A stretch of 64,000 bases of DNA from Prostheceraeus crozeri (taxonomy: Eukaryota > Platyhelminthes > Polycladida > Euryleptidae): contig CAJQUW010007812.1 of assembly GCA_907163375.1 (NCBI GenBank), positions 62,001 to 126,000 of the forward strand, given 5' to 3'. This document shows positions 6,609 through 26,813 of the stretch, in pieces; the first letter of the stretch is position 1, and the number at the start of each line of letters is the position of its first letter. Under the pieces are notes generated by a model that was given only the letters and a program-made list of their open reading frames with translations, was not told where the DNA came from and did no database searches. A program made the position numbers and the translations under genes.

Positions 6609-7475
6609 GTGTCAGAGTGGCTTTGTATGGGTAAAATTTTGAAAATTTTCCAAAGTGTGGAATTTCGACCAGGGACCTTCACCAAAACATTTTTCATCAA
6701 ATTTCACGGACCTACCCCCCCCCTACAGCAATCTTCTAACTTTGGTTCTAGTGAACGGATTTTGTCTTACAGCTACTCGTTTGAAAGAGGAGAAAAAACT
6801 GCTCGACGCCATTTTTGCCGCGAGTCAATCGGACCAGTCGTTCAAAAGTTAGAGCTGTTACAAGATTTTAGGTCGGAGCTCACCTGAAAAAATCCTAAGT
6901 GTCAGAGTGGCTTTGTATGGGTAAAATTTTGAAAATTTTCCAAAGTGTGTCATTTCGACCTGGGACCGTCACCAAAACATTTTTCATCAAATTTCACTGA
7001 CCCCCCCCCTCTGGCCGGCCGTCGTAGCGCGCGGTGATGTGCTGTCGAGGTTGGCGTGGTGTGCCGGCCAGGTTGGGAGGGTGGACTGTCGTAGCTCACC
7101 TGAAAAAATCCTAAGTGTCAGAGTGGCTTTGTATGGGTAAAATTTTGAAAATTTTCCAAAGTGTGGAATTTCGACCAGGGACCTTCACCAAAACATTTTT
7201 CATCAAATTTCACTGACCTCCCCCCCTCGGGAGAGCTCGCTTCGATCTTGGCTTCTAGTGGACGGATTTTGTCGTGCAATAGCTCGTTTGAAAGCTAAGA
7301 GTGAGACAAATTCAGTGAAAGAAACGGCTTGTTCATATCTGTCTTCGTTTAGATGTGAGACGCCATTTAAGATTTTGGGACATTGGCGAAAAACGACAGA
7401 GTTAGAATTTCCCAAGAAACAGCTCCAGCGGGCGAATGAAGGCTCGGATTGGTAAACGGAGGCCAGATTTGGAAT
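6609..7475. repeat. Left terminal region of Polinton A: three tandem modules plus TIR
   Basis: The module GTGTCAGAGTGGCTTTGTATGGG, continuing AATTTTGAAAATTTTCC and ending near ATCAAATTTCAC plus a poly-C run, occurs at 6609, 6900 and 7117. The second and third are preceded by GAGCTCACCTGAAAAAATCCTA or similar. From about 7000 to 7475 the sequence is an inverted copy of 25695-26190, including the GC-rich CTGGCCGGC patch. The true terminus may be the AGTGTCAG at 7116, which has the AGT start usual for Polintons. Confidence 0.75.
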
Positions 7476-7492
7476 CAGCTTGATGTTATTGT

Positions 7493-7538: not shown

Positions 7539-7639
7539 AGCGAGCCTTCCACAGTGAGAATCATTCCATCGTTGAATCGCACGAGTGACGGACGCACATT
7601 TTCTCTCTCTCTACTTCCCTATTCTATTATCCAACTAAA

Positions 7640-8413: not shown

Positions 8414-8447
8414 TCCTTTCCTAACTCTACCCTATGACAATTCGCTT

Positions 8448-8555
8448 ATGTGCTTTGAGTGTCGTAGACGTGGTCTTATTAGATACATTTTACTTCTTCG
8501 TTGCCATCATATCATTCGTGTATTTTGTCGTGAAAAGCATCGATGTAATTCTTAA
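8448..8555 (+). CDS. Possible Cys/His-rich micropeptide
   Basis: A 35-codon frame starting at ATG 8448 reads MCFECRRRGL... and has CxxC, CHH and C...C groups. It lies between gene 1 and the exonuclease acceptor, so it could be intronic. Too short to separate from chance. Confidence 0.15.
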   Translation: MCFECRRRGLIRYILLLRCHHIIRVFCREKHRCNS

Positions 8556-8607
8556 TTTTGTAATATGTTATAGAACGTTTCCTTAGATGTGTAAATTTCC
8601 GTTTTAG

Positions 8608-9156
8608 GCTTCTATCATCATTTTTATGGATTGTGAGGGTGAACCTGTACAGGAGCTCAATGCTATTGCTATGAACAATTGGACATATCAGATTGTCAGT
8701 GTCTATCATCAACATGCTAACTGCAATCCCAATGTTGATCAATGGGCGAGAAAACACATTCATGGACTTAATCTGAAATATTTGCAAGACTATGGCTTTT
8801 CTTGTGAGAGTGCTCTTCTTATTGACTTTAAACGATGGTTAGCTGCTTTCAATGTTATACGCATCTTTTGTAATAATCCTGGTAAGGAGAGGAAAGTATT
8901 TCCCAATCTAATCATTGATGATATTTTGCTCCCACCTTGGGATAGTAGAGTGAATCAACATTATCATGAAGTCACGAAACGTTTTAAGGATTTGTCTGTT
9001 CCTATTTTGTCTGTTCGTTGTAGTAGCTACGTTCATAACCAATGCTTCTTTCCTCCTTACCTCAGCACTGCCAAAGTCCTGTATGGTTATCATTGCTCGC
9101 TGTATGATAGTTACCAGCTGTATCTATTTTATCTCTTTCAAACCATTGATTTATAA
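8608..9156 (+). CDS. DEDDh-type 3'-5' exonuclease-like protein (start supplied by splicing)
   Basis: An acceptor CCGTTTTAG ends at 8607 and is followed by GCTTCTATCATC..., in frame with the downstream protein. An ATG-only exon such as 7640-7642 joins in phase 0, giving a hydrophobic strand ahead of the first motif. Motif I is IIFMDCEGEPVQEL (Asp and Glu of DEDD exonucleases). The end carries HCSLYDSYQLYLFY, like the His-x4-Asp third motif of the DnaQ class; motif II is less clear (IIDD region). About 183 residues, the size of a stand-alone DnaQ-like nuclease. The alternative is translation from the internal ATG at 8626, which would remove the first strand. Role inferred: proofreading, end processing or RNA degradation. 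Confidence 0.55.
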   Translation, partial: ASIIIFMDCEGEPVQELNAIAMNNWTYQIVSVYHQHANCNPNVDQWARKHIHGLNLKYLQDYGFSCESALLIDFKRWLAAFNVIRIFCNNPGKERKVFPNLIIDDILLPPWDSRVNQHYHEVTKRFKDLSVPILSVRCSSYVHNQCFFPPYLSTAKVLYGYHCSLYDSYQLYLFYLFQTIDL

Positions 9157-9240
9157 TGCATGCTTGTTACTATTATTCAATAAATGTTACTATGAGAAGA
9201 GTTGCTTTCATGCAATGGATGGGTTAGATAAAGGGCGATC

Positions 9241-9651
9241 ATGTCTTTCTCAAACGACTGCGGAACATTACATTTTCATAGGCAAAGTTTAAAAGGAGCT
9301 GTTCAAGATTATGTGATAAATTTTCATAAAGATGAGACCGACATCGAAGCAGTGGTCGATGATGCTAGCATTCTATTTCTAGAGTTAATGAATACATTCT
9401 CTGATAGCATTGTCATGGCGCGATTAGTTGCGAAAATTAAGTTTAGTCATTTTGGAAAGAAAGAGGTGGAAAGTCGCTCTTTCCATTTTGCTTCTTATTC
9501 AATGGAAGTGGTAGATCACCCCGAAGAATTTTTTAAAAGACATATGATAAAAATTGCTGAACGTCTTAATGCATTTAACCGTCATGGTAGCAGTCTAGTG
9601 ATTGAAGCGATTTCAGATATTCACATTCAACTTTCCATAAAGAAAAATTGA
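9241..9651 (+). CDS. Conserved Polinton-type hypothetical protein
   Basis: 136 residues, acidic in the first half. The pattern F.FAS...E.F....IKIAERL..F...GSSLVIEAISDIHIQL resembles, from memory, a domain common in proteins next to viral-type PolB genes of invertebrate Polintons (ending with GSGW...I..L). The protein is short and uninterrupted and ends two bases before the next gene's ATG (TGAAAATG), so the two may be co-translated. Function unknown. Confidence 0.6.
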   Translation: MSFSNDCGTLHFHRQSLKGAVQDYVINFHKDETDIEAVVDDASILFLELMNTFSDSIVMARLVAKIKFSHFGKKEVESRSFHFASYSMEVVDHPEEFFKRHMIKIAERLNAFNRHGSSLVIEAISDIHIQLSIKKN

Positions 9652-9653
9652 AA

Positions 9654-9977
9654 ATGCAGTGGTACTTGATTGTAGCACAACTGGTTTTCGAGCTATGTCT
9701 GCTCACTCTCGCAGTATATTCCTTCTGTACATGCGTCTATTATTTAGAAAAGGCTAGCAAATTCATATCTTCAAAAAGACTTGCTATAGACATCAGTAAC
9801 GGTGAAACTATGTGTTGTGATGTATGTAAGCGAAAGGATGGAAATGAAAAGCGCATCTTCAAGAGATGTAAGCACGCTTTTTGTCAACGCTGTTTCATAC
9901 GTAATTGCATTCAACTTTGCAAATGTAACCACTGTGATTATGCTCATTTCGAGTGTCACTTATGTCGCAATAGTTAG
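9654..9977 (+). CDS. Membrane-anchored RING-like zinc-finger protein
   Basis: About 107 residues from ATG 9654. An N-terminal hydrophobic segment (VAQLVFELCLLTLAVYSFC) would act as signal anchor. A Cys/His array follows: CDVC, then KRCKHAFCQRCF, then C...CKCNHC and CHLC. The CxxC...CKHxFCxxC core is what a RING-type E3 ligase shows. The predicted topology puts the zinc domain on one face of a membrane. Virus-encoded membrane RINGs often target host membrane proteins, but that is family knowledge and not shown here. Confidence 0.6.
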   Translation: MQWYLIVAQLVFELCLLTLAVYSFCTCVYYLEKASKFISSKRLAIDISNGETMCCDVCKRKDGNEKRIFKRCKHAFCQRCFIRNCIQLCKCNHCDYAHFECHLCRNS

Positions 9978-10028
9978 TACCTATGCAAATGTGGTAAAGA
10001 TTGGTTTTAGCAAATACTAACACGGAAA

Positions 10029-10394
10029 ATGGCGAAACGTAAAATGGCGAAACGTAAAAGACAAAAGTCTTCAAAGTTTTCTTCAGCCATTCAAGCTCTC
10101 CGACGAATGAAAGCAGATCAGCGATACAATGCTATACGACATGCCAACGATAAATTCATTCGTGAAATTATTTCTCATGTCAGAAAGTTGAGGACGAAGA
10201 AATTAGCGCCAAAACAACGAAAGTTACTTAAGCGATATGCCACAAAATCGCGTTTCATCTCCAATCCTAAAGTCACCCTTCAAAGAAAGAGGAAAACTCT
10301 AACACAAAAGGGCGGTTTCCTTTCAGCAATACTTCCAATGATAGCTCCTGCCGTGGGCAACCTATTGGGTAATATCTTTGGCTCTAAGCGTTAA
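10029..10394 (+). CDS. Basic core protein with adenovirus pX/pVI-like hydrophobic tail
   Basis: 121 residues. The first ~95 are very rich in Lys and Arg (MAKRKMAKRKRQKSS at the start), fitting DNA condensation. The end is GGFLSAILPMIAPAVGNLL followed by GNIFGSKR, a glycine-flanked amphipathic segment typical of Polinton and adintovirus virion core proteins likened to adenoviral pX. The start has a direct repeat of AAAATGGCGAAACGT, so translation could begin at either of two in-frame ATGs. It is followed 31 bp later by the ATPase. Confidence 0.65.
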   Translation: MAKRKMAKRKRQKSSKFSSAIQALRRMKADQRYNAIRHANDKFIREIISHVRKLRTKKLAPKQRKLLKRYATKSRFISNPKVTLQRKRKTLTQKGGFLSAILPMIAPAVGNLLGNIFGSKR

Positions 10395-10425
10395 TTATGC
10401 AAATGTTGAGTCTCAAAGTAATAAA

Positions 10426-11043
10426 ATGGATTTCAGACTTCAATGTGATAAAGTTCTGACTGTATCAGGTCCATCTCATGCAGGTAAAACAGTTTTCACG
10501 CTGAATTTATTGGATAAAAGAAGGGAGTTGTTTAAGGAACCTATCAATCGAGTGATTTGGTGTTATGGTATTTATCAACCGTCGCTGTTTCAGGAATTGC
10601 AAAGTCGCAACTTTATTCGACATGAAGGAATTATTGCAGTGGATAAACTTCAGTCTAATGATGTTGTTGTATTGGATGATTTATTAAAAGAAAGTAAGAA
10701 TTCAAAAGATGTTACAGATATGTTCACTCGCGCAGCACATCATAAAAGGTGTTTTATCATCTATATCACACAAAATTTGCTTCCTGATGGAAAAGAAGCT
10801 CGTACACGAAACCTGAATACACACTATTATGCTATTTTCAAGAATCCGCGAGATAAAAGTCAATTTGAAATTTTAGCGCGACAAGTTGCACCCAGAGGAT
10901 CAAAAGCCTTAATTGAAATTTTTCAAGCAGCTACTGAAAAACCATACGGTTACTTATTCATTGACTTTACGCAAGAGTGTCCGGAAGAATTTAGATTTCG
11001 AAGTGATATTTTGAAAACTCCCATGATTATCTACAAACTATGA
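10426..11043 (+). CDS. DNA-packaging ATPase (FtsK/HerA, A32-like)
   Basis: About 205 residues from ATG 10426; an upstream in-frame stretch exists but overlaps the previous gene. Walker A is GPSHAGKT (residues 15-22) and Walker B is VVVLDDLL (residues 80-87), followed by a CFIIYITQN segment like sensor strand motifs in the A32 family. This enzyme pumps DNA into the capsid. Its stop codon overlaps the next gene's start (ATGA at 11040-11043). Frame intact. Confidence 0.85.
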   Translation: MDFRLQCDKVLTVSGPSHAGKTVFTLNLLDKRRELFKEPINRVIWCYGIYQPSLFQELQSRNFIRHEGIIAVDKLQSNDVVVLDDLLKESKNSKDVTDMFTRAAHHKRCFIIYITQNLLPDGKEARTRNLNTHYYAIFKNPRDKSQFEILARQVAPRGSKALIEIFQAATEKPYGYLFIDFTQECPEEFRFRSDILKTPMIIYKL

Positions 11044-11948
11044 GTTCTTATTCTCGCATGATTGTTATTTCTCAGGATGAATATGTACAATTGACTGCCA
11101 TGCAGCAAGTAAAGCAACCTCTTGCAAATCAAATGTATAGGAAAGAAATAGATTATCAGCAAAATGTTCACATCAAAGATCCACATCGTGCTGTATTATT
11201 ACAATCGGAAACTGTTGAGCAATTGAAAAACTTGAAGAATAAGATGCGTGACTCTGTATCGACTGCTACACCTTTAGCATCTCGCGCACATGCCATATCT
11301 CTTTTCAACAGTATTGAACCCCATCTCAATGTAAATGATAGAGGAGAAATCATTACAGATGAAAATAAAGTGATTGATGCTTCACGTTATGAATACTTGA
11401 TTCAGTATGCGACACGTAGAAAGCGCCGTCAGGGCTATGTTCCACCTAGTTGGTCATACTTTCTTAAACTATTGAAAAAGCATAATGTACCAAAATTTGC
11501 TTTGAATAATGAGACATTGAAAGAACTTGATTCAACAGTGGCTACTGCTCCAATGCTTCAGACGATGAAAAAGCCAACAAATTGGTTTAAGACGTCACCT
11601 GCTACATCCCCTCTCACACTCACTAAGCAAACAAGAGGAAGAACTCGACGTAGATCTACATCGCCACTAAAACTAGTAAAAGGAAAACTTAAAACAGCTC
11701 CTCCAGGAAATACATGTTCTCAGACTATTAATATGAAGCAGATGTGTTGCTTGCCATGTAATGAGCCGCCAGAGGTGAATGTCGTTGTCACTTGCACTTG
11801 CTGCGCCAGCTCTCACAATGAAACCCCTAAGCAATGTGAACACGATCGCAAAACCGCTAAAGCTAAATGCTGCAGTTGTTGTAAATGTAGAAAGGCAAGA
11901 AAACAAAAAGATGAGAAGGAGAAAAAAGAGTCAGTCGTCATCGACTGA
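11040..11948 (+). CDS. Conserved Polinton hypothetical protein with Cys-rich tail
   Basis: 302 residues. Residues ~130-165 hold RRQGYVPPSWSYFLKLLKKH, a tryptophan-containing block I recall from other Polinton proteins placed after the ATPase. Residues ~205-215 are RTRRRSTSP-like, and the tail (~233-290) has many cysteines (MCCLPC, CTCCASS, CCSCCKCRK), possibly metal binding. It overlaps the integrase gene in another frame from 11911 on. The tail may therefore be partly a by-product of that overlap, although cysteine clustering argues for selection. Confidence 0.55.
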   Translation: MSSYSRMIVISQDEYVQLTAMQQVKQPLANQMYRKEIDYQQNVHIKDPHRAVLLQSETVEQLKNLKNKMRDSVSTATPLASRAHAISLFNSIEPHLNVNDRGEIITDENKVIDASRYEYLIQYATRRKRRQGYVPPSWSYFLKLLKKHNVPKFALNNETLKELDSTVATAPMLQTMKKPTNWFKTSPATSPLTLTKQTRGRTRRRSTSPLKLVKGKLKTAPPGNTCSQTINMKQMCCLPCNEPPEVNVVVTCTCCASSHNETPKQCEHDRKTAKAKCCSCCKCRKARKQKDEKEKKESVVID

Positions 11949-12999
11949 ACGTTTGAAGTCAATCTATTATGATGTAAAACATCCGGCAGGATTTGCATCT
12001 ATCAAGAAATTATCAAAAGCGAGTGGTCTTCCACAATCACAAGTGAAACGATGGTTAAAGGGTCAGGCTACCTATACACTCAACAACCAAGCGAAAAAGA
12101 AGTACCGCACCCGCCATTATATTGTTCATGACATCGATGAACAGTGGCAAGCAGATTTGTGTGATGTTGCCTCCATTTCAAAACATAACTCGGGCAATAA
12201 TTTTATTTTAACCGTCATTGATATTTTCTCGCGTTATGCGTGGGCTCAACCTTTAAAAACTAAAGAAGGGAAAGGAGTAGCAAAAGCATTCCAAACAATT
12301 TTTCGAGAAGGTCGCATTCCAAAAAGAATTCAGAGTGATCAAGGAAAAGAGTTTGAAAATCAGCATGTGAGAAGATTATTTGAGAGGCATGACATTGAGT
12401 TGTTTAGTGTAAAGAGTGCTTATAAATCTGCACTCGTTGAACGTTTTAATCGCACATTAAAAAATCGCTTGTGGCGACATTTTACTGCCAACTTGACACA
12501 AAATTGGACAAAGGTTCTACAAGATACACTCCATGCCTACAATCACTCTATCCATCGTTCTATTGGACTCAGACCAGTAGATGTAAATGCTGACAATGTA
12601 GATAAAGTGCGCGAATCATTCCAACGTAAACGCACTCATGTGAAAAGTGATGTGAAAATTGGTGATAAAGTTCGTATCTCAAAAGTGAAAAGTGTTTTTG
12701 CTAAAGGGTACCTTCCGAATTGGACAGAGGAGGTATTTACAGTATCAAGGATTAATCAAAAAGACTCTCCGACCACCTACAAGTTGAAAGATTACGATAA
12801 TGAAGAAATTGAGGGTAGCTTTTACCGCGATGAGATTGAGGTAGTCACTGAAAGTGAAACATATTTGGTAGAGAAAATCATTCGATGTAAAAAACGGCAA
12901 GGTGAAGAATGGTGTCTTGTTAAATGGACTGGTTATCCTTCAAGTATGAACTCTTGGATGCGTCGTGCCGACATCTTTCATCTAAGTGATCGACAGTGA
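11911..12999 (+). CDS. Retroviral-type integrase with C-terminal chromodomain
   Basis: 362 residues from ATG 11911, chosen because YYDVKHPAGFAS and WLKGQATYTL (typical Polinton INT N-terminus) follow it. The catalytic triad is Asp82 (WQADL), Asp143 (SDQGKEF) and Glu177 (LVERFNRT). An SH3-like segment (GDKVRISK) and a chromodomain (YLVEKIIRCK... WCLVKWTGYPSSMNSW) complete it. It inserts the element and makes the 6-bp target duplication; the chromodomain may steer insertion to marked chromatin. The frame is open, so the enzyme may still be functional. Confidence 0.93.
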   Translation: MRRRKKSQSSSTERLKSIYYDVKHPAGFASIKKLSKASGLPQSQVKRWLKGQATYTLNNQAKKKYRTRHYIVHDIDEQWQADLCDVASISKHNSGNNFILTVIDIFSRYAWAQPLKTKEGKGVAKAFQTIFREGRIPKRIQSDQGKEFENQHVRRLFERHDIELFSVKSAYKSALVERFNRTLKNRLWRHFTANLTQNWTKVLQDTLHAYNHSIHRSIGLRPVDVNADNVDKVRESFQRKRTHVKSDVKIGDKVRISKVKSVFAKGYLPNWTEEVFTVSRINQKDSPTTYKLKDYDNEEIEGSFYRDEIEVVTESETYLVEKIIRCKKRQGEEWCLVKWTGYPSSMNSWMRRADIFHLSDRQ

Positions 13000-13040
13000 T
13001 TCATGCAAAGTTGTAACTAACAATGTTTAGGGTTTGAGCT

Positions 13041-13495
13041 ATGAATCCAACTGCCTCATTTTATTCACGACCCTCCTATGTAAGTGGTGGAGGACAAATT
13101 TCCATCGGCGCTCGCCGCCAACGTGGAGGTAGCATACTTGGTGCACTGAAATCTGTTGTAGCATCTCTCATATCCAATGTCGGAAGATCTTTAAAACGAA
13201 ATGTTTTAAGTAATGCCGTTGGCTTTGCTGGTGATGTTGCTAGTGATCTTTCCAGAGGTAGAAGTTTAAGAGCAGTTTGTTGAATCGTGGGAAGGAACGC
13301 GGTTTAAAAACATTGAAGCAGACCTTTGCTGGTGTTACTCAAGGAAAGAAATCACCTAAACGAATGAAAAAAGGAAGGAGGAAACATCGCGGAGCTGGTA
13401 AGGTGCGATCTTCAGTCAAAAGGCATTCACGCAAACGTCGCAGAGGCTCTAATCATTCATCAGGCGCTAAACGACGACGCTGCCATAACTTCTAA
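13041..13495 (+). pseudogene. pVI-like minor capsid/core protein, frameshifted
   Basis: The first frame (13041-13283) has a glycine-flanked amphipathic core (RQRGGSILGALKSVVASL) and ends AGDVASDLSRGRSLRA. The second frame (from ~13277) resumes with LNRGKERGLKTLKQTF and a long Lys/Arg tail. In other Polintons these segments are continuous in one protein, so I read a one-base frameshift at 13277-13285. Likely internal virion protein. Confidence 0.6.
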
Positions 13496-13497
13496 TC

Positions 13498-14775
13498 ATG
13501 GAGTGTAAAACTTCCGGTTTTTGTTTGTTTGATCAACAAGCCATACAGACAGATATTCTTAGTTCAAGTATTGTAGATTATCATCCTCGAACAGCTGAGA
13601 ATACTGGCCCCATTGAATTTGTTATTCCTGGTGGTAGTGATGACTACATAGATTTGAGTTATGCGATGCTTGATTTGAGGTTTAGAATTCAGCAAGCAGA
13701 TGGAACTGCTATTGACGATGCACATAAAGTTGGACTGAACAATTTACCATTGACTACATTACTTCGTGATGTTTCTCTAACGATTGGAGAGCAGCAGGTG
13801 GAAGGTGGTCAAAGCGATTATCCCTATAAATCATATTTCAATCATGTATCACAGTTTCATCCAGCAGCACAAAAAAGTCATATGGAAGCCATGGGATGGT
13901 ATAGAGATGAAGCAGGAAAATTTGATGTTGAAACAAACAGTGGCTTTGTAAAGCGATCTGCCATGATTAAACATAGTAGAGTATGTCAGCTATATGGTCC
14001 GCTGAATTTAGACTTCTTTAGACAGTCAAAGTTTTTACTCTGTAATACCAGCATGCGACTCAAGCTGACATTGAATAAGCCTGAATTTGCGCTGAATGCA
14101 TTTGCTAAAGTTGACAATTTTAGAATTCATGTGGAAGATATTGCACTTTACATTCGTCGAGTAGTACCGAATCCAAGTGTCATTAGAGGACATGCTGAAG
14201 GTCTTAACCGCCAAAATGCCATTTACCCCGTTCAGCATACAAAGCTTCTCACCTTTACAATTCCAAAAGATCAAAAGAGTTTCATGAAAGATGGCCTCTT
14301 TCCATCGGAAGCACCGAAGCTCCTCATGATGGCAATGGTTGAAAATGATGCATTTAATGGTAATATAAAGAAGAATCCTTTCAATTTTAAACACAATCAG
14401 TTAAGTGAAATTGCTTTACGTGTAAATGGTGTGAGTCATCCTGGTCCACCCTACAAACCAGATTTTGCTGCGGATCAATTTATGCGCAGTTATGTTGATT
14501 TTATGGATGTCTTTGGCTTTTACAATACGGATGACACCAACGGACTCACTATGAAAGAGTTTAAGAGTGGATATACTATTTATGCATTTGATTTGACTGC
14601 TGACAGCGATATTAGTGCCCCCTATCGTCAAGCGAACGTGCCTCATAATATTCGTTTGGATTTGACGTTCAAAAGAACACTACCTGAGACGATCAATGTA
14701 TTAATTTATGCAGTCTTCGATTCAAATATTGAAATTACAAAGTATCGTGACGTGATTCTTCAGTATAATCGTTAA
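13498..14775 (+). CDS. Major capsid protein candidate (double jelly-roll, F54H12.2-like)
   Basis: 425 residues. The N-terminal pattern PIEFVIPGGSDDYIDLS, followed by LLRDVSLTIGEQQVEGG and DYPYKSYFNH, is the signature of the F54H12.2-like family found across invertebrate Polintons, which I take to be the major capsid protein. Near the end FDLTADSD and LDLTFKRTLPETINVLIYA are also typical. It is intact and sits directly before the protease with a TAATG stop-start overlap, fitting a morphogenesis cassette. Confidence 0.8.
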   Translation: MECKTSGFCLFDQQAIQTDILSSSIVDYHPRTAENTGPIEFVIPGGSDDYIDLSYAMLDLRFRIQQADGTAIDDAHKVGLNNLPLTTLLRDVSLTIGEQQVEGGQSDYPYKSYFNHVSQFHPAAQKSHMEAMGWYRDEAGKFDVETNSGFVKRSAMIKHSRVCQLYGPLNLDFFRQSKFLLCNTSMRLKLTLNKPEFALNAFAKVDNFRIHVEDIALYIRRVVPNPSVIRGHAEGLNRQNAIYPVQHTKLLTFTIPKDQKSFMKDGLFPSEAPKLLMMAMVENDAFNGNIKKNPFNFKHNQLSEIALRVNGVSHPGPPYKPDFAADQFMRSYVDFMDVFGFYNTDDTNGLTMKEFKSGYTIYAFDLTADSDISAPYRQANVPHNIRLDLTFKRTLPETINVLIYAVFDSNIEITKYRDVILQYNR

Positions 14776-15236
14776 TGAGTTGGTTGACTGCTGACGATAT
14801 TAAGACTAAAGTGCAGCGTAATGCAGACGAAGCGACGTTGAAAGCTTTCGATAATGTCTATTCACTCGATACCTTACCACCTGCAGTAAATCACTATCCC
14901 ATCTTTATTGTGCTAAACACTCATTCGCAGAATTTAGGCGGTGAGCATTGGAAAGCGATCTTTATTGGAGAAGACCGACGTGGTGAACTATTTGACTCTG
15001 TTGCTCAACCTCCAAATATACCAACACAACAGTGGTTGAGAAAACATACGCGTCAATATCAGCGAAATGAACGCATACTACAACATCCACTTTCATCAAC
15101 GTGTGGTGCTTTTGTACTGTACTTCATCTTAAAACGTTTACATGTATCTCGATTTGTATCTGTTATTCAAAACTTTTCATGTAATCCATCCTCTAATGAA
15201 AAAATGATTTGTAAGTTCTATCATGATTTGAAATAA
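14775..15236 (+). CDS. Adenain-type cysteine protease
   Basis: 153 residues. Catalytic candidates: His58 (GEHWKAI), Asp74 (ELFDS), Gln103 (LQHPLSS) and Cys110 (STCGAF), the order and spacing of adenovirus protease/Ulp1-fold Polinton PRO. Expected to mature virion proteins. Start overlaps the MCP stop. An AATAAA lies at 15233-15238, overlapping the stop. Confidence 0.9.
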   Translation: MSWLTADDIKTKVQRNADEATLKAFDNVYSLDTLPPAVNHYPIFIVLNTHSQNLGGEHWKAIFIGEDRRGELFDSVAQPPNIPTQQWLRKHTRQYQRNERILQHPLSSTCGAFVLYFILKRLHVSRFVSVIQNFSCNPSSNEKMICKFYHDLK

Positions 15237-15262
15237 AAACATCATGTTGGAAAAATTGTTTT
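15228..15262. terminator. Convergent poly(A) signals
   Basis: GAAATAAAAAC at the protease stop on the plus strand and AAAATAAAAAAC on the minus strand (15250-15262) abut the ends of two convergent genes, PRO and the TBP-like gene, only 26 bp apart. Confidence 0.6.
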
Positions 15263-15808
15263 TTATTTTACAATCCGCTGGGTACGTACATACTCGATCA
15301 GATAGTCTAGGATCACATTTGCTTGTACATGAGATTTTAATACAGTAATGATCACTATACTATTATGAAAGATTGCCACATGCACAGGTAACCAACAACT
15401 AATAAGAGCTGCAGGAAAAAGTTCGGGTTCATAACACAAATTGTAACTGCTGGTACGAATCTTCAAAAATGATACACTTTCACTCAATTGAGTAGAGATC
15501 ACCATATTGTCCACAGTCAGATTCGACATCACACACCTCTCCCTCTTCCATATCCGACGTAGTAGTCTTCGTAGCTCTAAGCTCATTGACTGCGCCGATG
15601 AATGAGAAAGGGCGCCGAGAATCTGTACAGTCCCATTTGGGAAGAGTTGAAGATTCCGTGAATTGTTCATCTTCACCACTAACATTTGAGGTCGGCCCGG
15701 GTAATACTTGCTGTTTGGAAGGTGTTGGTGTAATGTTGTGAGATCGATTTTGGTGTAGAGTCTGAAGCGACGGAGAATGTTGACGATGGTGTAGCGATGG
15801 CGCTTCAT
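15263..15808 (-). CDS. TATA-binding-protein-like protein (two TBP repeats)
   Basis: 181 residues from ATG 15808, almost exactly the size of the TBP core. Two repeats (residues ~5-90 and ~92-175) show the TBP plan. Repeat 1 has TIVN...KIDLTTLH, YYPGRP and LQLFPNGTVQILGA. Repeat 2 has LTVDNMV, then CYEPELFPAALIS and HVAIFHNSIVIIT. These align by eye with YNPKRF/IFSSGK...TGAKS and YEPELFPG/IFVSGK...TGAK of eukaryotic TBP. Of the four DNA-kinking Phe positions three are kept (F56, F131, F147) and one is Pro (P40). An in-frame extension to 15952 lacks motifs. Inferred role: promoter recognition for the element, or interference with host transcription. Confidence 0.78.
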   Translation of the reverse strand: MKRHRYTIVNILRRFRLYTKIDLTTLHQHLPNSKYYPGRPQMLVVKMNNSRNLQLFPNGTVQILGALSHSSAQSMSLELRRLLRRIWKRERCVMSNLTVDNMVISTQLSESVSFLKIRTSSYNLCYEPELFPAALISCWLPVHVAIFHNSIVIITVLKSHVQANVILDYLIEYVRTQRIVK

Positions 15809-16130
15809 GATGAAAGAATGAGTAAATTGAGCGATGTACCTTCCTTTTATACTTCTCCCAACTACCTTGATGAAATGTGAAGTTAGTATGAAGTTGGGAA
15901 TGATAGAGTTGAATTCGCCGATTGTTGACGCGCAGCCAGATGCGATTTCCAATACGTGAATGTCTTTTCATATAGAAGTATTTCAAATCCTTCATGATAT
16001 GATGTAGAGATTGAAAATGACGATAAGATAAAGCAAACTCTCTTCTCACATTTCCAGTTGAATCTTTGAAATAGACGTTTCGATCATGATCCGTTTCAAT
16101 ACGTTGTAGGGAATCTAATTTCCAACTCAT
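15480..16130 (-). CDS. PC4-like small DNA-binding candidate, copy 2, with overlapping tail
   Basis: Residues 1-~107 are a diverged paralogue of the protein at 16153-16509: LDSLQ.I, NV.FK, R...L..R.F..L, IMKDL.YF, WEKY.R..HRSI. Strand-rich blocks followed by a W/F-x2-L helix recall the PC4/Sub1 ssDNA-binding pattern, seemingly twice per protein. From 15808 on, the frame overlaps the TBP-like gene in another frame and is Ser/Pro/Thr-rich, so the last ~109 residues may be incidental. PC4 assignment is tentative. Confidence 0.5.
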   Translation of the reverse strand: MSWKLDSLQRIETDHDRNVYFKDSTGNVRREFALSYRHFQSLHHIMKDLKYFYMKRHSRIGNRIWLRVNNRRIQLYHSQLHTNFTFHQGSWEKYKRKVHRSIYSFFHHEAPSLHHRQHSPSLQTLHQNRSHNITPTPSKQQVLPGPTSNVSGEDEQFTESSTLPKWDCTDSRRPFSFIGAVNELRATKTTTSDMEEGEVCDVESDCGQYGDLYSIE

Positions 16131-16152
16131 GGTGCGTGGTAGTCATGTCTGA

Positions 16153-16509
16153 TTAAGATTTGCATAGTAGGGCGATGAACTCACGACGAATAAATGTCAT
16201 GATGGAGCGATGTATGTATCTTCTATACTTCTCCCAATTGTATTTGCGAAATGAGAAACAGTTTGCGGAATGAGAATGGCAGATTTGAATTTCATTGTTG
16301 CGACGTTGAAGCCAAACTTGATCACCCAAGGAGATGAATCTTAATGTTTCAAAATATTCCAAATCCTTCATGATATCATTGAGGTTGACAAATTGTCGCC
16401 ATGTTAATGTAATACCTCTTGATGAATGACCATGAGAATTTTTGAAGTGTACGTTTCCATTACGATCAACTCTGATATATTGTAGAGAGTCCAAAATCCA
16501 AGTCTTCAT
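16153..16509 (-). CDS. PC4-like small DNA-binding candidate, copy 1
   Basis: 118 residues from ATG 16509, preferred over the in-frame ATG at 16521 because the paralogue starts at the equivalent place. Pattern: YIRVDRNGNVHFKN, then SRGITLTWRQFVNLNDIM, like the beta strands and G-I-S/T-L-x2-x-Q-W/F-x2-L helix of PC4. A second similar block ends with NWEKYRRYIHRSI. Only 35 bp separate it from the divergent penton-like gene at 16545, so they share a bidirectional promoter. Confidence 0.5.
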   Translation of the reverse strand: MKTWILDSLQYIRVDRNGNVHFKNSHGHSSRGITLTWRQFVNLNDIMKDLEYFETLRFISLGDQVWLQRRNNEIQICHSHSANCFSFRKYNWEKYRRYIHRSIMTFIRREFIALLCKS

Positions 16510-16544
16510 GATGTTATGCAAAGTCGCAGATCAGCAATATAAAA
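16510..16544. promoter_or_regulatory. Very short bidirectional intergenic region with TATA-like motif
   Basis: ATATAAAAATG precedes the plus-strand start at 16545. Only 35 bp lie between divergent start codons, so any core promoter must overlap the minus-strand coding region. Confidence 0.35.
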
Positions 16545-17942
16545 ATGTCGTTTTATCATATTTTGCTTAGCAATGCGGCTACAAAGAGATTTGCTAGTAA
16601 TCGACCCGCACTCTTTTCTACTCCCATTGATCATACACAACAGCTAAATGGAAATTGGGAAGTGGGTATCACTCAACTTGTTTATAGCAACTGTGTCTAT
16701 ACTTTTGATCATGAGGTGATGACTATTAATATGAGACGCACAGCTGCTTACCAATGTGAAAAGGGCTGCCGAGTATACATTCCACAGTGGCCAAAGAAAG
16801 ATCTCTTATCATGTAAAAAGTTTATATATGATTTCTTGAATAAAGCGTGTAAACATATTGCCCAATTTACTCCGCACAATGATGATTATAATTATGTACA
16901 TCATGTAGTTGAGAAAGATTGGATTGTTGGTTTAAGTCCAAGTTTAAGAAATGATTTAGGTTACCTCGCTAGCGCCTTAACAAGCTATGATAATTTTAAC
17001 GTTAATTACCACATAAGTGGTCATAAACAGTTAATATATCGAGAGGAAGCTTATTATGTAGATCTTATTCCAAGAAATGAGAAGACGTTGGTGAAGAAGA
17101 TTGTGATTAAGCCAAGAAAGACAAACATGACTCCTGAAACATTATTGAAGAAATTTAATTATCTCCTTCGAGTTGATGGTAAAGAAGTGGCAACATTGAC
17201 TTATATCAAATCATCTAATCATATTGCAATAAGTAAATTAAATGATGATGATCTAGTATTAGTTTGTTCAAAAGATTTTCATCAGTTCTTACGACATCGT
17301 TCTGCAGCTGTTCATGGAAAATCTGATATGCAACATTTACCATGTGAAAGGCCAAATCAATTTGATACAGAATGGACCGTATCTTTATACAGAAAGTGTG
17401 TAGAGCCTTTCGGTGGTATCTTACATGAAACAAGAGTGTTGATGCCTCGCATTATTACTTCGGTTAAATTGGTTGTGGATTATTTAAATGAAGTGATTAA
17501 TGAGGAACATATTTTATTTTCTGAAAAAGAAGGTACTTTGTCTCTCACTATAAGTGGAAAAGGTATTGAACTAATTATGGATAAAACTCTAATGGACATT
17601 TTGGGTTTTGATCAAAATATCTTTAAAAGTGGTACTGTAACCAAAGCTAGTGCAGACATGTCGCTATCGCGTCGTATTAACTATTTTCAGATATATTCCA
17701 ATATTGGTGAAGATGTACGTGTGGGAGATGTTGAAGCTCCATTGCTAGCAATGATACCATACCAGCCAAAAAGCTGCAGTATTTTATCTGAGCATACTTT
17801 CAAGAAAGTGCATTATATAAAGGTGAAATCAAACTACATCCCACAAATTGATATTGCCATTTATGACGATGCTGGTGCGTTGATTCCTTTTCATAAAGAT
17901 GCTGTGACAAGTATCACACTCCATTTCCGAATGAAGAGTTAA
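16545..17942 (+). CDS. Penton-like virion protein 1
   Basis: 465 residues. The N-terminus has the block FYHILLSNAATKRFASN..., QQLNGNWEVGITQL, recurrent in Polinton penton-type proteins (LPSN...L.G.WEVG). The C-terminus ends with DIAIYDDAGALIPF and VTSITLHFRMK, matching the closing strands of the same family. Middle repeats (YVDLIPRNE, WTVSLYRK) suggest two or more related domains. Likely vertex or spike protein. Its stop overlaps the next ATG (TAATG). Confidence 0.65.
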   Translation: MSFYHILLSNAATKRFASNRPALFSTPIDHTQQLNGNWEVGITQLVYSNCVYTFDHEVMTINMRRTAAYQCEKGCRVYIPQWPKKDLLSCKKFIYDFLNKACKHIAQFTPHNDDYNYVHHVVEKDWIVGLSPSLRNDLGYLASALTSYDNFNVNYHISGHKQLIYREEAYYVDLIPRNEKTLVKKIVIKPRKTNMTPETLLKKFNYLLRVDGKEVATLTYIKSSNHIAISKLNDDDLVLVCSKDFHQFLRHRSAAVHGKSDMQHLPCERPNQFDTEWTVSLYRKCVEPFGGILHETRVLMPRIITSVKLVVDYLNEVINEEHILFSEKEGTLSLTISGKGIELIMDKTLMDILGFDQNIFKSGTVTKASADMSLSRRINYFQIYSNIGEDVRVGDVEAPLLAMIPYQPKSCSILSEHTFKKVHYIKVKSNYIPQIDIAIYDDAGALIPFHKDAVTSITLHFRMKS

Positions 17943-19501
17943 TGCAAAAGTATGCTAATATATTTTCCAATGTGAATAATATGGAAAGTGAAAATAAGGA
18001 CTCGTTTCTAATCTACTTGCCCAGTAATGCTTCTATGAATAAATTTCCCAAAAATAAACCATCAGACTATCGAGTAGAATTAAATCGTCCACTACATTTA
18101 GAAGGTGAATGGGAGGTTGGCGTTTCTAGTATTTGCTATGATAGCAATATTCAGAATGCGAATGATTTGGAAGAAATGATATTGACTCCTCGCACCCATG
18201 ATGGAATAACGATGAATAATGCATTCCAGTTCCCATACAATTTAACATCAGATGGAAAGTGGAACTATGAATGGATTCAGATAAAATCAGATTCTTATGA
18301 ACCATTTGGGAATGAGAAAATTATTAAGGCATTCAATAGTGGTAATACTTCCATCATGAAGAATAAAAATCAGAGAGCTTATGAGTTTACTATCTATCAT
18401 TGGAGTGGGAGACAGTTCCTTCGCTTTCATTCTTTTACTAAAGGTCTTACACTGAGGTTGGATAATAAATTCTATCCACATCTTGGTTTTGGTCATGGAC
18501 TACATCTAACGTCAATTGCTACTGCAAATGTTAAAAAAGTTTATTCAAATCGAATCAACAAATTTCATTATAGATTTAAAATATTTGATGAAGATGTTGT
18601 AGAATGCGAAGAACGCATCATTTTGAAAAAGCGTGGTGTTCAACCTTTATCATTTATTGAGTTAGTAAAACGATGGAATGAAACTGTGGGTAAGAAGTAT
18701 GGAGAAAAAATTATGGCGGACAAAAATAAGTTGGTTATTCAGAAATATAATGACAAACTTACAGTTTATTTCTCTCCAACCTTGCGCCATTTTGTAAGAC
18801 ATTATACACCTATTATTGGAAGCGGTGTGGTGTATGCTTCTCATGAATATCACACTAAAGCTGATTCAGTTAATGATGAATGGTGGGTGGACATCTATGG
18901 TGATCACATCAAGAAAATTTACCAGTCTTATGAAGAATCTAAAGTTGCTATCAATATAATGCCGCGTCTATATTATACAGTTGAAAGCTTCATTCATGTA
19001 GTAAATCCTTACATACAACAGAAGTTGAAGCATGTGATGAAAAGTAAATATGATGCAAAGACACACCACATTTCGTTTTCAATTGAAAATCAACGCGTTG
19101 TTCTGAAACTGGGCGATGACATTCAATGTCAATTGAGTAAAAATTTGAAAAAACTCTTTGGTTTTTCAATGCTACAAACTGTGTTTACTGCTGCGCATAC
19201 GATTGGTATAGAAACACCAATGACACTTGATAAACATGAACAGCACCTTTACATTCAAAGTGATTTGATTCTACCTATTTCTGTTGGTGAGAAAAAAGAA
19301 TACATTTTACGCGATTTCATTCATGATAAAGACGCTTCATATGGAATAGTTGAGAAGATGTTTGAATCTATTTTCTATCATCCCGTCGTCAAACAAACTA
19401 TACCCTCTATTGCTATCAAAATTACCAATGGTTTACAAGAGTGCATCCATGTGAAAGATACTAAATCCCTCGTAACTTTAGTGTTTCGGAAAACAAAGTG
19501 A
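17942..19501 (+). CDS. Penton-like virion protein 2 (tandem paralogue)
   Basis: 519 residues from 17942; a second in-frame ATG at 17981 gives MESENKDSFLIYLPSN, the more usual start for the family. Shared blocks with the upstream gene: HLEGEWEVGVSSICY, DEWWVDIYGDHIK, YYTVESFIHVVNPYI and a closing SLVTLVFRK. The two genes arose by tandem duplication and have diverged strongly. AATAAA at ~19525 ends the unit. Confidence 0.65.
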   Translation: MQKYANIFSNVNNMESENKDSFLIYLPSNASMNKFPKNKPSDYRVELNRPLHLEGEWEVGVSSICYDSNIQNANDLEEMILTPRTHDGITMNNAFQFPYNLTSDGKWNYEWIQIKSDSYEPFGNEKIIKAFNSGNTSIMKNKNQRAYEFTIYHWSGRQFLRFHSFTKGLTLRLDNKFYPHLGFGHGLHLTSIATANVKKVYSNRINKFHYRFKIFDEDVVECEERIILKKRGVQPLSFIELVKRWNETVGKKYGEKIMADKNKLVIQKYNDKLTVYFSPTLRHFVRHYTPIIGSGVVYASHEYHTKADSVNDEWWVDIYGDHIKKIYQSYEESKVAINIMPRLYYTVESFIHVVNPYIQQKLKHVMKSKYDAKTHHISFSIENQRVVLKLGDDIQCQLSKNLKKLFGFSMLQTVFTAAHTIGIETPMTLDKHEQHLYIQSDLILPISVGEKKEYILRDFIHDKDASYGIVEKMFESIFYHPVVKQTIPSIAIKITNGLQECIHVKDTKSLVTLVFRKTK

Positions 19502-22500
19502 AGTCATTGTGATATGTTTATTGAAATAAAAATATAAATATATGAAAAAGTCTTTTCACAGATATAGGGGGAATGAGCTGACTGCAGGCATATATTCACA
19601 AGGAAGAAACGATCTCATGCGATACATAAAACAACCATGTATATCTACAAAAAGCAACATCAAAATACTGAGTTAAAGTTGATTATGTCAATACATCTCC
19701 TGAATGTGGTAGCGTGATTTTTATTCTTTTGGGTGGAGGTATGTTTGTGTCAGGATGTCCATGTGGAAGAGATGTGTTATGTCCTATCCAACACCTCTTA
19801 TCCTCCCATGCTGAAAGTGCTCGTTTCTTGAACGTGTACGTTTTCACAGTATGAACTTGAGATTTTAAGATTGTCATATTGACAAACGTTATAGTTTTAT
19901 TTTTATAGGCCTTCTTATAGGACCGATGTTTCATTTTATGAACAATGGATTTTGATATACCTTTAGCACGCTTAATACTATCTGCACATTCTTTTAATTT
20001 CATGGAATACATTTTAGGACGGAGGAGAATCATTTCATCTATTTCCTTTCCTGCTGTTTCATCCTTAAAACAACCAAGTTTGGCTTTATTCTGTATGGAA
20101 TAGAGTGGATGAGTGGGATTGTAGTTAGATGTGTCGAAATATTTTTCTAATGACTTGCCTACGTCATTAAAATTTAAATCTTTTTGAGTGGTAATTCCTA
20201 AAAAGAAACTATCTGTATCACCACCCAGCAAGCGAACCTCTTTTACGAGAGGGCATGGTTTTAATATTTTGTAGAAGAGTTGATACATTTCAAGCTTGGA
20301 ATAATCTAAAACGGCTTGCCCAATATAGATGGGTTTGCACAACTCAACTTCTGATTTTATCATTTTAACACCTACAAGATCCTCATCGATGATGTCTCTA
20401 TCAATGAAAAGAGGTGATGAGGTCAATTTGTGATATTTTTGTTCATCAACGACTAGTTTGTAGTTCATACGTTTTCTAACATCCTCCATGGTCTTTCCGA
20501 AAAGACTGTTATTCTTATATTTATAAAAATCCTTTTCAAAATTATTTTGGGCGAGTGCACGTTTTTGACTGTTACTATCTATGTAGGGTTTGAGGAAGGC
20601 TTTCTGTCTAAATTTGATAATGCGGTGAACTGACTTTAGAAGCATGCCCATTTCTAAATAGAATTTTAATATGCAGAAGTGTACGAGATAATTTTTCTTA
20701 TCATATTGGGTGAGTAAAAGTTTGCGGCATGGTTTGTACCTTGGCTGTCCACACTCTGTTAAGTTATTATGAAATTGTGACATGAATGGTGAAAACATAT
20801 CTTCAGTCACTTCACCAGATTCAGGTGCGAGTGGGAAATCAGCAGTTTTATTTTTAATGCTATTTGGATAAATCAAATCCACTTCAAAATAATATCCCCA
20901 ATCACCTGCATCTGGAATCTTCAGTATGTTTGAAGGGTTGGAGTAATACTCAAGCTCATCTTGATTTAACCAACTAAACTCGGAATGAGGTAGTGGTTTA
21001 GACAGTGAACTGCCATATAAATTATTTTGGTCATAGTACTTTAGGTGGATATGATCATCACCTACTGTTTCAGATTTTATATGATGTTTATTTACAAATG
21101 TGAGACCACCGCGTATTCCGCGCTCAAATATATTATACATCTCCGGGTCTTGTAAGAGATGAATGGTCTCACCAGTCATTTTAAAGGCTGATTTAAAGGA
21201 CATGGCTGGTAGACTGACAAAGTGGACAGGATCTAATTTGTCTTCTTCTAATGCCACTCGTCGAAATTCCTGAAAGACATCAGCCGGCAAAATGACATCT
21301 AATTCTAAGTAAGCGATCATATAATCGCCAAACGTTTTACAATCAAATTTTAACCATGCCTCTTGAGCATGTTCATAATCTTCTACTGGACAATCTTCAC
21401 CCATCAAATCGTTTTGGAATTTGTCAATGGAAGGAAGGGTTGTTTCATTTAGTTTAGACATTGAGCTAAAATACGCATAAGGAAAGACTCTTTTGCGAGT
21501 GATTATTTCATCCGTTAAGTTTGGATAGTGTTTCTTCAAAGTTTGACTATGGGGAAGAAACTTGAGATTACGAACGAGAGAAGCTAGTGACGCTGACATG
21601 AATTGGAATGAATCTAAAAATTTTATTTCGAAGAAGACTGTCTTATTTTCTTTAGTTTTATCTACTAGTACTTTCGCTGTCATTGCCATGAATTTTTCCC
21701 TCGTTTGCGCTATTACATTAAACTACCACGATTTCATCTGGCTCAACCCTCCTTTTATGAGCATATGACTGTCATAGCCCTTAAAGTTATGAAAAATGAC
21801 GGGTAGTACACGACGTCTCAACCTAAGTGAAAAGTTACATTTGGAGCAGAGTGCGTTTCTAAATTTACCAGTGATGTGATCATGATCACGCACTTTCTTA
21901 ATTTTATCGTCATCAAACGTTTTATGACATTTAGGACAGGATGTGCAACTTTCAAATTTTTGTTTGTCTTCATCTGACATATGTAGTGACTTACGCTGCA
22001 ATTGGGAATCATATGATTGTTGAAATTTAGCAGCTTTATCGAGAAATTCTAGACATTTTGAAATGCAATCTTCACCTTGCCAAGTATGCATTTTGTTTTG
22101 TCTATTCCTAAAGTGGTCATGCCATACTTCATAGCAGGATATGGCTGCTAGCTTGTGGATGATGTCATCAATGTAGCATTCTATGTCTGCGTAAATGACA
22201 CGCAGGGGACTTAATTCGTCACCATTATCCCTATGTGAAAAAATTTTATCTTTGGGCATGCGTTCCATTTGTAATTTACCTCGCTTGCACCATTCATAGT
22301 GAGTTTCAAATTTATCTTTACTCCAAGAGGAGCGGATGCAGCGGTCGCATACAAAATGTTCACCTCTTTTAGAGTGCCCCAAGTGAGTGTACAAGCGAGA
22401 GATTTTGGGAATACCACAGTAGTGCCATTCCTCGCTATCATCTTGTTTTACTAATAAGAGGTTGACTACACGTTCATAACAAGTTGAACGTGAATCATAG

Positions 22501-23464
22501 CGGGCACCCTTCAACCCCTTCTCCCACACGTGAACGACAATTTTAATCTGATTATGTTTTTCGAACGTTTCTACATCTTTGATTTTCACGTTGTTACTAT
22601 CACAACCTTCAAAGCCTAGTTCATCCTCCGACTGTCTATAGCTATAGGTGCGATCTCGATGCGCGTTGACATCATTATAGTGAAGGATGGATAGGACTGC
22701 ATATATGAAACACTGTGATTTACAATCAACATTGATGACAGCTTTCTTATTATACAACGTTTTTGGTAGTTTAAATGTGCCTCGAGCTGCATGACTTTCT
22801 AATAGGGAAATTTTGAATATGGCTGAGTCCACACCATCAAAAATGAGAGCGCTATCGCGTTCATTGAATTTATCTACATTTGATTTTAAACATTGAATGT
22901 GAAAATTTAGCCAAGACTCGCAGTCTACAACTTCGGTTGCGGAAGAGGAAGGAACATGAAACTGTATTCTCTCCGTCACTTGACCCGTTTGAAAATCTAT
23001 CTTAATATATTTTAGTTTAAGGTAGATGAGCGCCTTCATTCTAAAATTGTCTAAATTGTTGAAGAGCGCTTCGATGTTAGAATTTTGAAGGAGCCACTCA
23101 GGAAAATCTACTATTTGAGTATTGGACTCCATGCAGTAGTCGCGTACTAAATTATTATGTGAAACATTAATGAGGGAGATGGTAGAGGTACCGTTGGTGT
23201 AGTGATCATTTGCATGCGTGTGTTGAAGTCTGTGCGAAGATCGCTGAAAGTGACTATCAAAAGAAAGAGGGCACAAATCGCAAGGAAAGGAGATGTCATC
23301 GTCATAATCAACTTCACCTCCGGAGATTGATGCCGCTTTGCGTTGACACACACGTTGTTTGATGTGTCGAAGGAGACTGTGCTTCCTTGTAAACATATGT
23401 CCGCAGTCGGCACATTCCCACTCGTTGCCTTGTCGCGAGAGTCCTGAGCTGGAACTCACATCAC

Positions 23465-23523
23465 CTGAAAGAGAAATCATTCTATCATCTCTGTTCAAGT
23501 CTCAGTGTATTGTTACAACCTAC
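23465..23523 (-). other. Putative second PolB intron, 59 bp
   Basis: Donor CAAA|GTAGGT and acceptor TTTCTCTTTCAG restore phase between exon 2 and the zinc-finger exon. Without it the exon-2 frame hits TAA. Confidence 0.55.
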
Positions 23524-23584
23524 TTTGACTCAACAACTCTAAACTTTCCTCGAGAAGGGAGGGCGTTGGTGATGAAGTTGATGC

Positions 23585-23861: not shown

Positions 23862-23871
23862 TATATTTATA
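23862..23871 (-). promoter_or_regulatory. TATA box candidate for PolB
   Basis: TATAAATATA on the minus strand about 210 bp before the PolB start codon, at the edge of the 371-bp tandem repeat. A second minus-strand TATA (CTATATAAGC) lies at 25424-25433 outside the repeat. Confidence 0.4.
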
Positions 23872-25008: not shown

Positions 25009-25009
25009 C

Positions 25010-25694: not shown

Positions 25695-26190
25695 AGATAG
25701 AGAATTTCACGCTGATTCCAAATCTGAAATCCGTTTTCCAATCCGATGCTTCGTTTTGAAGCTACAGCCTAAAACGTCCAAAATTCTAACTCTGTCGTTT
25801 TTCGCCAATCTCCCAAAATCTTAAATGGCGTCTCACATCTAAACAAAGACAGATATGAACAAGCCGATTCTTTCAGTGAATTTGTCTCACTCTTAGCTTT
25901 CCAACGAGCTATTGCACGACTAAATCCGTCCACTGGAAGCCAAAATCGAACCTAGCTCTCCCGAGGGGGGGGACGACAGCGAAATTTGATGAAAAATGTT
26001 TTGGTGAAGGTCCCAGGTCGAAATTCCACACTTTGGAAAATTTTCAAAATTTTACCCATACAAAGCCACTCTGACACTTAGGATTTTTTCAGGTGAGCTA
26101 CGACAGTCCACCCTCCCAACCTGGCCGGCACACCACGCCAACCTCGACAGCACATCACCGCGCGCTACGACGGCCGGCCAGAGGGGGGGA
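25695..26190. repeat. Right TIR of Polinton A
   Basis: Inverted copy of ~7000-7475: AACTCTGTCGTTTTTCGCCAAT, AGATATGAACAAGCCG, the poly-G run, the CCACTCTGACACT module and the CTGGCCGGCACACC patch all match the left end in reverse. 26191-26317 continues outwards with two GGGGGGACGTCAGCGAA repeats. Confidence 0.8.
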
Positions 26191-26317
26191 CGTCAGCGAA
26201 CCTTTCGGACGCACTTGGCCGACACACCACGACACTCTGTCGTTCCAGGGGGGGACGTCAGCGAAAATTCTTCGATGGCGGCCATCTTGCGCGGTCCAGA
26301 AGTGGAGTTTTACTTAC

Positions 26318-26813
26318 TACTAAAATGAGTGAAGTGCTCCCATTAAATAAAAAAGCTTAAATTTAATCATCATCCAAATTTATCTAATAAAGTTTTGACA
26401 GTTATTTGTGGAAGATCAGGATGTGGAAAAACATATCTATTATTTAAAATTCTAACTACTCCAAATTTTTTGGATTATAACAATCTTATAATTTATACAA
26501 CAACAGCAGAACAACACGTCTATCAATTTATAAAATATGGATTTGAAAATAATCTTAAAAAACAGCAATTGCTTCATTATTCAAAGAATATGAAAAATCT
26601 GAATATGAAGAAGAAATAAGTTCGTGGTGTGAAGAAGCAGCAAAAACTAATCAGTTAGTAGAATATAATAAAAATAAACACATAAAGATACAATTAATAG
26701 ATGATAGTGGTAATATGCAAGATCCTAGTAAACTAGATAAAACAATGAAACGTTGTGTAATTTTTGATGATTGTGTTAATGATAGAAATCAGTCAGTTCA
26801 GAGAAATTATACT
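26318..26813 (+). pseudogene. ATPase 5' part of Polinton B copy 1 (resumed after Polinton A)
   Basis: Collinear with ~33864-34357 of copy 2. ATG at 26325 but a stop follows within 12 codons. The Walker A GRSGCGKT is kept, and the frame break after HYSKNMKNL is the same as in copy 2. Similarity ends at 26813 within the Walker B region, marking the right limit of copy 1 here. Confidence 0.85.

Follow-up and report, generated by a model that had tools for sequence, protein, structure and literature searches.

In the genome of the polyclad flatworm Prostheceraeus crozeri, a Polinton lineage carries a divergent yet genuine TATA-binding protein (TBP) as a fixed, selected gene, as is evident from its family membership, its predicted fold and its conservation. 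The gene was found in a stretch of 64,000 nucleotides (assembly GCA_907163375.1, contig CAJQUW010007812.1, positions 62,001 to 126,000; hereafter the window), where it lies within a Polinton bracketed by terminal inverted repeats. The initial annotation of the window had described a minus-strand frame of 181 residues with blocks typical of TBP, and the ATG, the stop and the quoted blocks are all present; its observation of a Polinton-borne TBP-like gene is confirmed here, and its interpretation of the gene as a TBP residing in a Polinton is supported.

When the protein is compared with Pfam-A, PF00352 (TBP) is the sole family listed at E<=10 (E=3.9e-18; 65.5 bits vs a cut-off of 22.9), in two stretches that cover both repeats, and a profile matches the same family at E=1.8e-23. 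The predicted structure is the two-repeat TBP saddle, with 19-25% identity in structural alignments with cellular TBPs. Of the outcomes which the initial annotation had listed as refuting its reading, namely no TBP match by profile, a fold lacking the two TBP repeats and no conservation in related elements, none was observed. The databases hold 55 homologues, of which the 14 most distant (P0043-P0056) were excluded from the alignment of 42 rows used for all residue counts; 19 columns are invariant over these 42 proteins, whose identity to the query is mostly ~40-48%. Because of these homologues, of open copies in the same genome and of purifying selection, the frame is beyond chance.

Conservation and selection in two Polinton lineages

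In the genome of the window (2.05 Gb in 14165 contigs), the best 150 or 99 of the first-look candidates (11682, 10972, 8035 and 19181 in the respective searches) were scored, and the copy numbers are lower bounds. The best 150 of 11682 candidates for the TBP query all match residues 1-181 at 97-100% identity and without stops, while a distant homologue as query yields 150 scored matches, a set that may overlap with the former and extends to subfamilies of greater divergence, stops occurring in some. The best 99 of 19181 candidates for the capsid query are all open and 99-100% identical, a low divergence pointing to recent or ongoing amplification.

The gene has a common position in related elements, where the initial annotation had proposed to look for conservation: in all 38 loci, among them the window's own (L002), the capsid and protease genes lie on one side of TBP and both PUR-like open reading frames (ORFs) on the other, and 37 of these loci also match the start (first 200 residues) of the gene at 16545..17942. 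Three further loci (L042-L044, of which L042 and L044 are near-duplicates on one contig) represent another Polinton lineage with a different gene order, in which the TBP is 43-44% identical, and each of the three also shows matches to the PUR-like proteins (31-40% identity, E 1.8e-5 to 1e-3) and has a polymerase segment that is 65-68% identical. A selected TBP is hence confirmed as common to two Polinton lineages of this genome, to which the statement on residence in Polintons refers. Among the database homologues, a TBP and a capsid match come from contigs of equal length (7106; P0007 and P0138), as do a TBP and a PUR-like match (1771; P0002 and P0178), which is suggestive at most.

Purifying selection on the TBP frame is observed both between and within sets of copies, in answer to the dN/dS (nonsynonymous to synonymous substitution) check that had been proposed. 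The Nei-Gojobori medians between subfamilies (groups S1, S2 and S3) are 0.258 (84 pairs), 0.304 (56 pairs) and 0.186 (96 pairs; range to 0.52). A usable start is present in 36 loci, of which the three groups take in 27; the other nine, among them the window copy, did not enter the medians. As the loci L002-L039 had been selected by TBP similarity, their low dN is partly an effect of the choice of hits, and a second sample was therefore taken via capsid matches (20 of the 99 listed capsid rows, hand-picked down the list; the copies are young). The TBP is at its expected place in all 20, intact in 17 and split by frame changes in three. This sample holds 11 synonymous and 13 nonsynonymous variants, where nonsynonymous sites are 3.19 times more numerous, and the mean ratio of nonsynonymous to synonymous polymorphism (pN/pS) is 0.386 (binomial p=0.015). 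The tail of the upstream ORF of 216 residues (15480-16130) overlaps the TBP in another frame; in an overlapping-frame test the tail looks unconstrained and the constraint falls on the TBP frame.

These results bear on the suggestion that the gene is a neutral passenger, an unused frame which looks intact since its copies are young. Their youth, the three split genes and the deviation of the window copy at family-conserved sites (see below) would suit such a passenger, but between-subfamily medians of 0.19-0.30, a pN/pS of 0.39 (p=0.015) in the capsid-chosen sample and the 19 invariant columns among proteins of such low identity make it very improbable.

The DNA-binding and TFIIB-facing surface, and the promoters

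Three of the four DNA-bending phenylalanines of TBP are kept (Phe at 56, 131 and 147) and the first is replaced by Pro40, just as the initial annotation had read them. I take these four positions to be F99, F116, F190 and F207 of yeast TBP; the yeast numbering and the contact roles of the other aligned positions are likewise my assignment. The set of four is thus incomplete, and as 39 of the 40 rows that cover the first position have Pro there, this is no peculiarity of the window copy. By analogy with TRF2, one of the animal TBP-related factors (TRFs), which according to a passage of a review (PMC10005294) lost TATA binding along with a Phe, a full set is no requirement for PF00352 membership.

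The remainder of the surface is partly kept and partly replaced throughout the family. In yeast numbering, Asn69 is kept in all 35 rows that cover it, Phe116, Asn159, Val161, Glu188, Phe207 and Thr215 in all 42 rows, Glu186 and Phe190 in 41 and Leu189 in 37. In the numbering of the query, the DNA contacts of the second repeat (N101, V103, F147 and T155) are invariant (42/42), and the residues E127, E129 and L130 of the EPELFP stirrup, whose EPEL is the TFIIB contact, are kept in 41, 42 and 37 of 42 rows. The replacements are equally consistent: Phe99 by Pro (39/40 covering rows), Leu114 and Val122 by Gln (42 rows each), Thr124 by Leu or Met (42), Ile194 by Leu (42), Val203 by His (42) and Leu205 by Ala (39). 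Positions 194, 203 and 205 are presumably those mutated in the classical altered-specificity TBP, which recognises TGTAAA. According to the same review, a change of three residues within the second repeat is enough to produce such a TBP; the passage leaves these residues unnamed (PMC10005294). Because the replacements are near-invariant among proteins mostly ~40-48% identical to the query, they speak for a changed binding preference and against decay, and as further DNA-contact positions are changed family-wide, binding of an ordinary TATA box is no obvious default.

I consider it rather probable that this divergent, selected TBP is made by the host machinery, has been re-specified and recruits the host's TFIIB and RNA polymerase II (Pol II). 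The host machinery would make the protein from the gene's own TATA box, and the protein would then bind promoter DNA via a saddle with a re-specified first-repeat floor (Pro for Phe, Gln at two positions) and a second repeat which keeps the intercalating Phe pair and the Asn, Val and Thr contacts and differs at the three TATA-specificity positions named above. The retained EPELFP stirrup would recruit TFIIB and Pol II to the promoters of the element, possibly with the neighbouring PUR-like proteins acting together with the TBP. Both promoter recognition and recruitment of TFIIB are inferred. The initial annotation had gone further in suggesting that the element becomes partly independent of host initiation, or competes for TFIIA/TFIIB; this may be so, and it stands here as a proposal.

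Several observations weigh against the recruitment of host initiation to re-specified promoters. TBP-like folds occur outside initiation too. Among the element ORFs that were scanned with profiles there was neither a TFIIB-like nor an RNA polymerase gene, and full autonomy is therefore unlikely. A common promoter motif could not be established upstream of 13 element genes: the best 6-mer has a count of 5, which 116 of 300 random draws also reached, TATAAA precedes two of the 13 genes (expected 0.61, p 0.12) and TGTAAA one (p 0.58), and TATATTG, a word picked by eye, precedes two (expected 0.14, p 0.016 uncorrected). The window copy itself deviates at two second-repeat positions, namely 156, where 41 of 42 family rows have Gly, and 151, where 35 of 42 have Lys or Arg; it differs from all 17 intact capsid-chosen copies at four residues, these two included, and from 16 of the 17 at a fifth. 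Owing to the deviations at 151 and 156 it is not the best example of its family, and it may be slightly decayed. Finally, the specificity argument depends on the residue numbers assumed here, which the review passage leaves out (PMC10005294).

Two other functions could be assigned to the same surface. The protein may be an interfering TBP, which binds host TFIIB but has little affinity for TATA DNA; it would then sequester initiation factors and reduce transcription of the host, the element itself relying on other promoters. The kept TFIIB-facing stirrup, the altered DNA floor of the first repeat with its replaced intercalating Phe (39/40 covering rows) and the loss of TATA binding ascribed to TRF2 (PMC10005294) are in line with this. 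However, the invariance (42/42) of N101, V103, F147 and T155 and of the Gln replacements in the first repeat fits a new specificity better, and I regard interference as unlikely. A non-transcriptional, DNA-bending role in replication, packaging or genome condensation seems a little less likely still. Such a role would suit the nucleic-acid handling suggested by the adjoining PUR-like genes, the TBP-like folds of repair and nuclease enzymes, and the lack of an established motif upstream of the 13 genes, but the kept stirrup residues E127, E129 and L130 have no obvious use outside initiation.

With respect to the promoters of the element, the clear TATA box attributed to its leftmost gene is borne out: TATATAAA at 7530 precedes the leftmost genes. 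In the same motif scan, TATATAAR is also found at 17814 (+) and 16828 (-). Near both terminal repeats the motif faces inwards (7530, + strand; 25432, - strand), resembling mirrored terminal promoters. The TBP gene is preceded by TATAAAAGG, the only TATAAAAG within 7485-25551, and TATAAAA at this place is kept in 33 of the 36 displayed loci. This conservation is no proof of a promoter, as the copies are closely related and the same nucleotides belong to the coding sequence of the PUR-like protein. Of the aligned homologues, 11 extend at least 12 residues beyond their start on the upstream side, and nine of these have Ile-Lys at about the same distance, which would fit a kept TATAAA and could equally reflect a PUR-like protein coded there.

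The element and its neighbourhood

The initial annotation called the element an otherwise standard Polinton. Its terminal inverted repeats, as expected of a Polinton/Maverick, bracket ~19.7 kb (best stretch 224 bp at 98%) and are clear, as is the rve-type integrase; the capsid is moderately supported, and protease, ATPase and polymerase are weak by profile (Table 1).

Table 1. Features of the TBP-bearing Polinton, in positions of the window
Feature	Position	Strand	Remarks
Left terminal inverted repeat region	6609..7483	+	with partial tandem copies
Basic protein	10029-10394		Adeno_PX (adenovirus core protein X) weak, E=0.0023, under cut-off
Packaging-type ATPase (weak)	10378..11043	+	Pox_A32 E=0.015, under cut-off; Walker A by eye
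Integrase with chromodomain	11779..12999	+	rve E=7.3e-11, Chromo E=6.3e-7
Probable major capsid protein, double jelly-roll type	13498..14775	+	hhalign to PF21738 protein
Ulp1/adenain-type protease (weak)	14775..15236	+	Peptidase_C48 E=0.0041, under cut-off
TBP-like gene	15263..15808	-	181 aa; ATG to stop
TATAAAAGG	15843..15851	-	43 nt upstream of TBP ATG, inside upstream PUR-like ORF
PUR-like ORF b	15801..16130	-	domain part of ORF 15480-16130; 45% identical to PUR-like ORF a
PUR-like ORF a	16153..16509	-	118 aa; predicted two units of four strands plus helix
Polinton protein, function unassigned	16545..17942	+	head-to-head with PUR-like ORF a, 35 bp apart
Second protein	17942..19501	+	resembles 16545-17942 protein by eye
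Probable DNA polymerase B region	19683..23498	-	C2H2 and endonuclease VII domains; two pieces, one in-frame stop between
Right terminal inverted repeat region	25707..26321	-	~490 bp at 91% with left one

The capsid assignment was obtained via a second Polinton, as a profile of 32 homologues aligns with the protein at 41776-43143 (hhalign E=2.4e-5, 318 columns, probability 75.6), which in turn matches PF21738 at E=2.8e-18. Two of the 32 family members match PF21738 directly (best E=0.0005); the window's own member does not, and there was no PDB hit for the capsid. The N-terminal part of the polymerase region (21723-23498) holds Endonuclease_7 (E=5.3e-6) and weak C2H2 fingers, and the larger piece has no polymerase match in Pfam or PDB, its motifs having been read by eye.

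The second Polinton, AT-rich and located at ~31240-45775, has the PF21738 capsid, DNA_pol_B_2 and, by eye, an integrase-like ORF, and it shows no TBP match. An interrupted older copy of it flanks the TBP-bearing element (4463-6608 and 26322-26810; compared region 31210-34358). This older copy is broken at 6608/26322, corresponding to 33471/33868 in the second copy, with flanks 97% and 95.5% identical and ~400 bp of target missing, and these breakpoints place the right end of the TBP-bearing element. It seems that the latter was inserted into another Polinton. Near the right end of the TBP-bearing element a unit of 371 bp is repeated in tandem (23867-25008, 99.5-99.7% identical). Elsewhere in the window, a transposase at 58537-59457 matches DUF4817, with weaker Tc3-type and DDE_3 matches.

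Origin and meaning of a Polinton TBP

The host genome does encode an exon-split TBP (C9306) and a TBP-related paralogue (C3829), and a recent capture of either, or a chance host fragment in one Polinton copy, was considered as a source of the gene. Over the matched stretch, however, identity to the fungal TBP in PDB 7z7n amounts to 79% for the host TBP and 40% for the paralogue, whereas the Polinton copies reach 23-26%. In a tree of 24 rows, 18 of them database homologues, 19 element-type proteins (including two from Polintons of this genome, P0001 and L043) are split from five cellular ones by a 100/100 branch. The TRF-like host protein falls on the cellular side, on a long branch of its own, and does not group with the Polinton TBP. 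Together with the shared gene position in 38 of 38 loci and the TBP in a second lineage, the identity gap and the tree split refute a recent host capture, to which I attach next to no probability. The gene may instead have been acquired long ago from a eukaryote or a virus, its source being either a viral TBP or an old cellular one.

Giant viruses were known to the initial annotation as carriers of TBP homologues, and structural matches were indeed found in BFVD: 39 viral matches at E<=0.001, with 7-21% identity, of which the top one is unnamed (E=7.0e-11) and the named ones include Heterosigma akashiwo virus 01, Terrestrivirus, ChoanoV1, iridescent viruses and ascoviruses (E 4.9e-10 to 4.4e-4); a herpesvirus and a poxvirus protein are also among the 39. 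Giant viruses and mirusviruses are far larger than Polintons, and many encode their own RNA polymerase. Two papers report TBP in 59% of mirusvirus genomes and, by the authors' clusters, in 0% of Nucleocytoviricota (PMC10132985), and in mirusvirus-like elements (PMC10675990).

The Polinton protein can thus be set against four known systems. It shares with the cellular TBP core the two-repeat saddle, the length of ~180 residues, three of four intercalating Phe, the EPELFP stirrup and the Asn, Val and Thr of the second repeat, but is 19-25% identical, has contact residues replaced family-wide and is encoded by a mobile element. Animal TRF1, TRF2 and TRF3 are likewise TBP paralogues, one of which is said to have lost an intercalating Phe and TATA binding (PMC10005294), but they are host-encoded, and the TRF-like host gene lies across the 100/100 branch. 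Giant-virus and mirusvirus TBPs have in common with it the virus-encoded TBP fold, though the identity of the former is as low as given above. With Polintons/Mavericks and adintoviruses the element shares inverted repeats, integrase, probable double jelly-roll capsid, weak protease and ATPase and a polymerase region, but no Polinton TBP is described in the portions covered of the literature on these elements, preprints and most subscription papers being outside this scope; TATA, TBP and transcription are not mentioned in the accessible text of PMC4028283, nor TATA, TBP and transcription factors in that of PMC10120064.

Viral contigs were scanned with TBP and capsid, each as a single sequence and as an alignment, and gave no match; searches for the TBP in phages and plasmids and for the capsid in phages gave none either. 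A genome contig collection contained one capsid fragment of 31% identity (L001), without a TBP match. This fragment, on an Ignavibacteria scaffold, and the protein P0058 (Pseudomonadota) are Polinton-like capsids filed under bacterial metagenome-assembled genomes, probably through eukaryotic contamination.

Few promoter factors of archaea and eukaryotes are as conserved as TBP. A virus-sized mobile element with a selected TBP offers a naturally occurring TBP whose DNA surface has changed, with many natural variants for comparison, in a nucleus where the ordinary TBP and a TBP-related paralogue are present as well. A more tentative proposal, possible though in my view somewhat doubtful, is that Polintons of ~20 kb carry a minimal promoter-switching module, in which a re-specified TBP, working with the PUR-like pair of putative nucleic-acid-binding proteins, would divert host TFIIB and Pol II to element promoters other than ordinary TATA boxes, and that this TBP forms an ancient lineage apart from the cellular ones. 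The Polinton TBP bears on the source of the TBPs of giant viruses and mirusviruses, and it is a possible marker gene for the TBP-bearing Polinton lineage. It also makes testable the idea that a single protein may separate the promoters of a small nuclear DNA element from those of its host.
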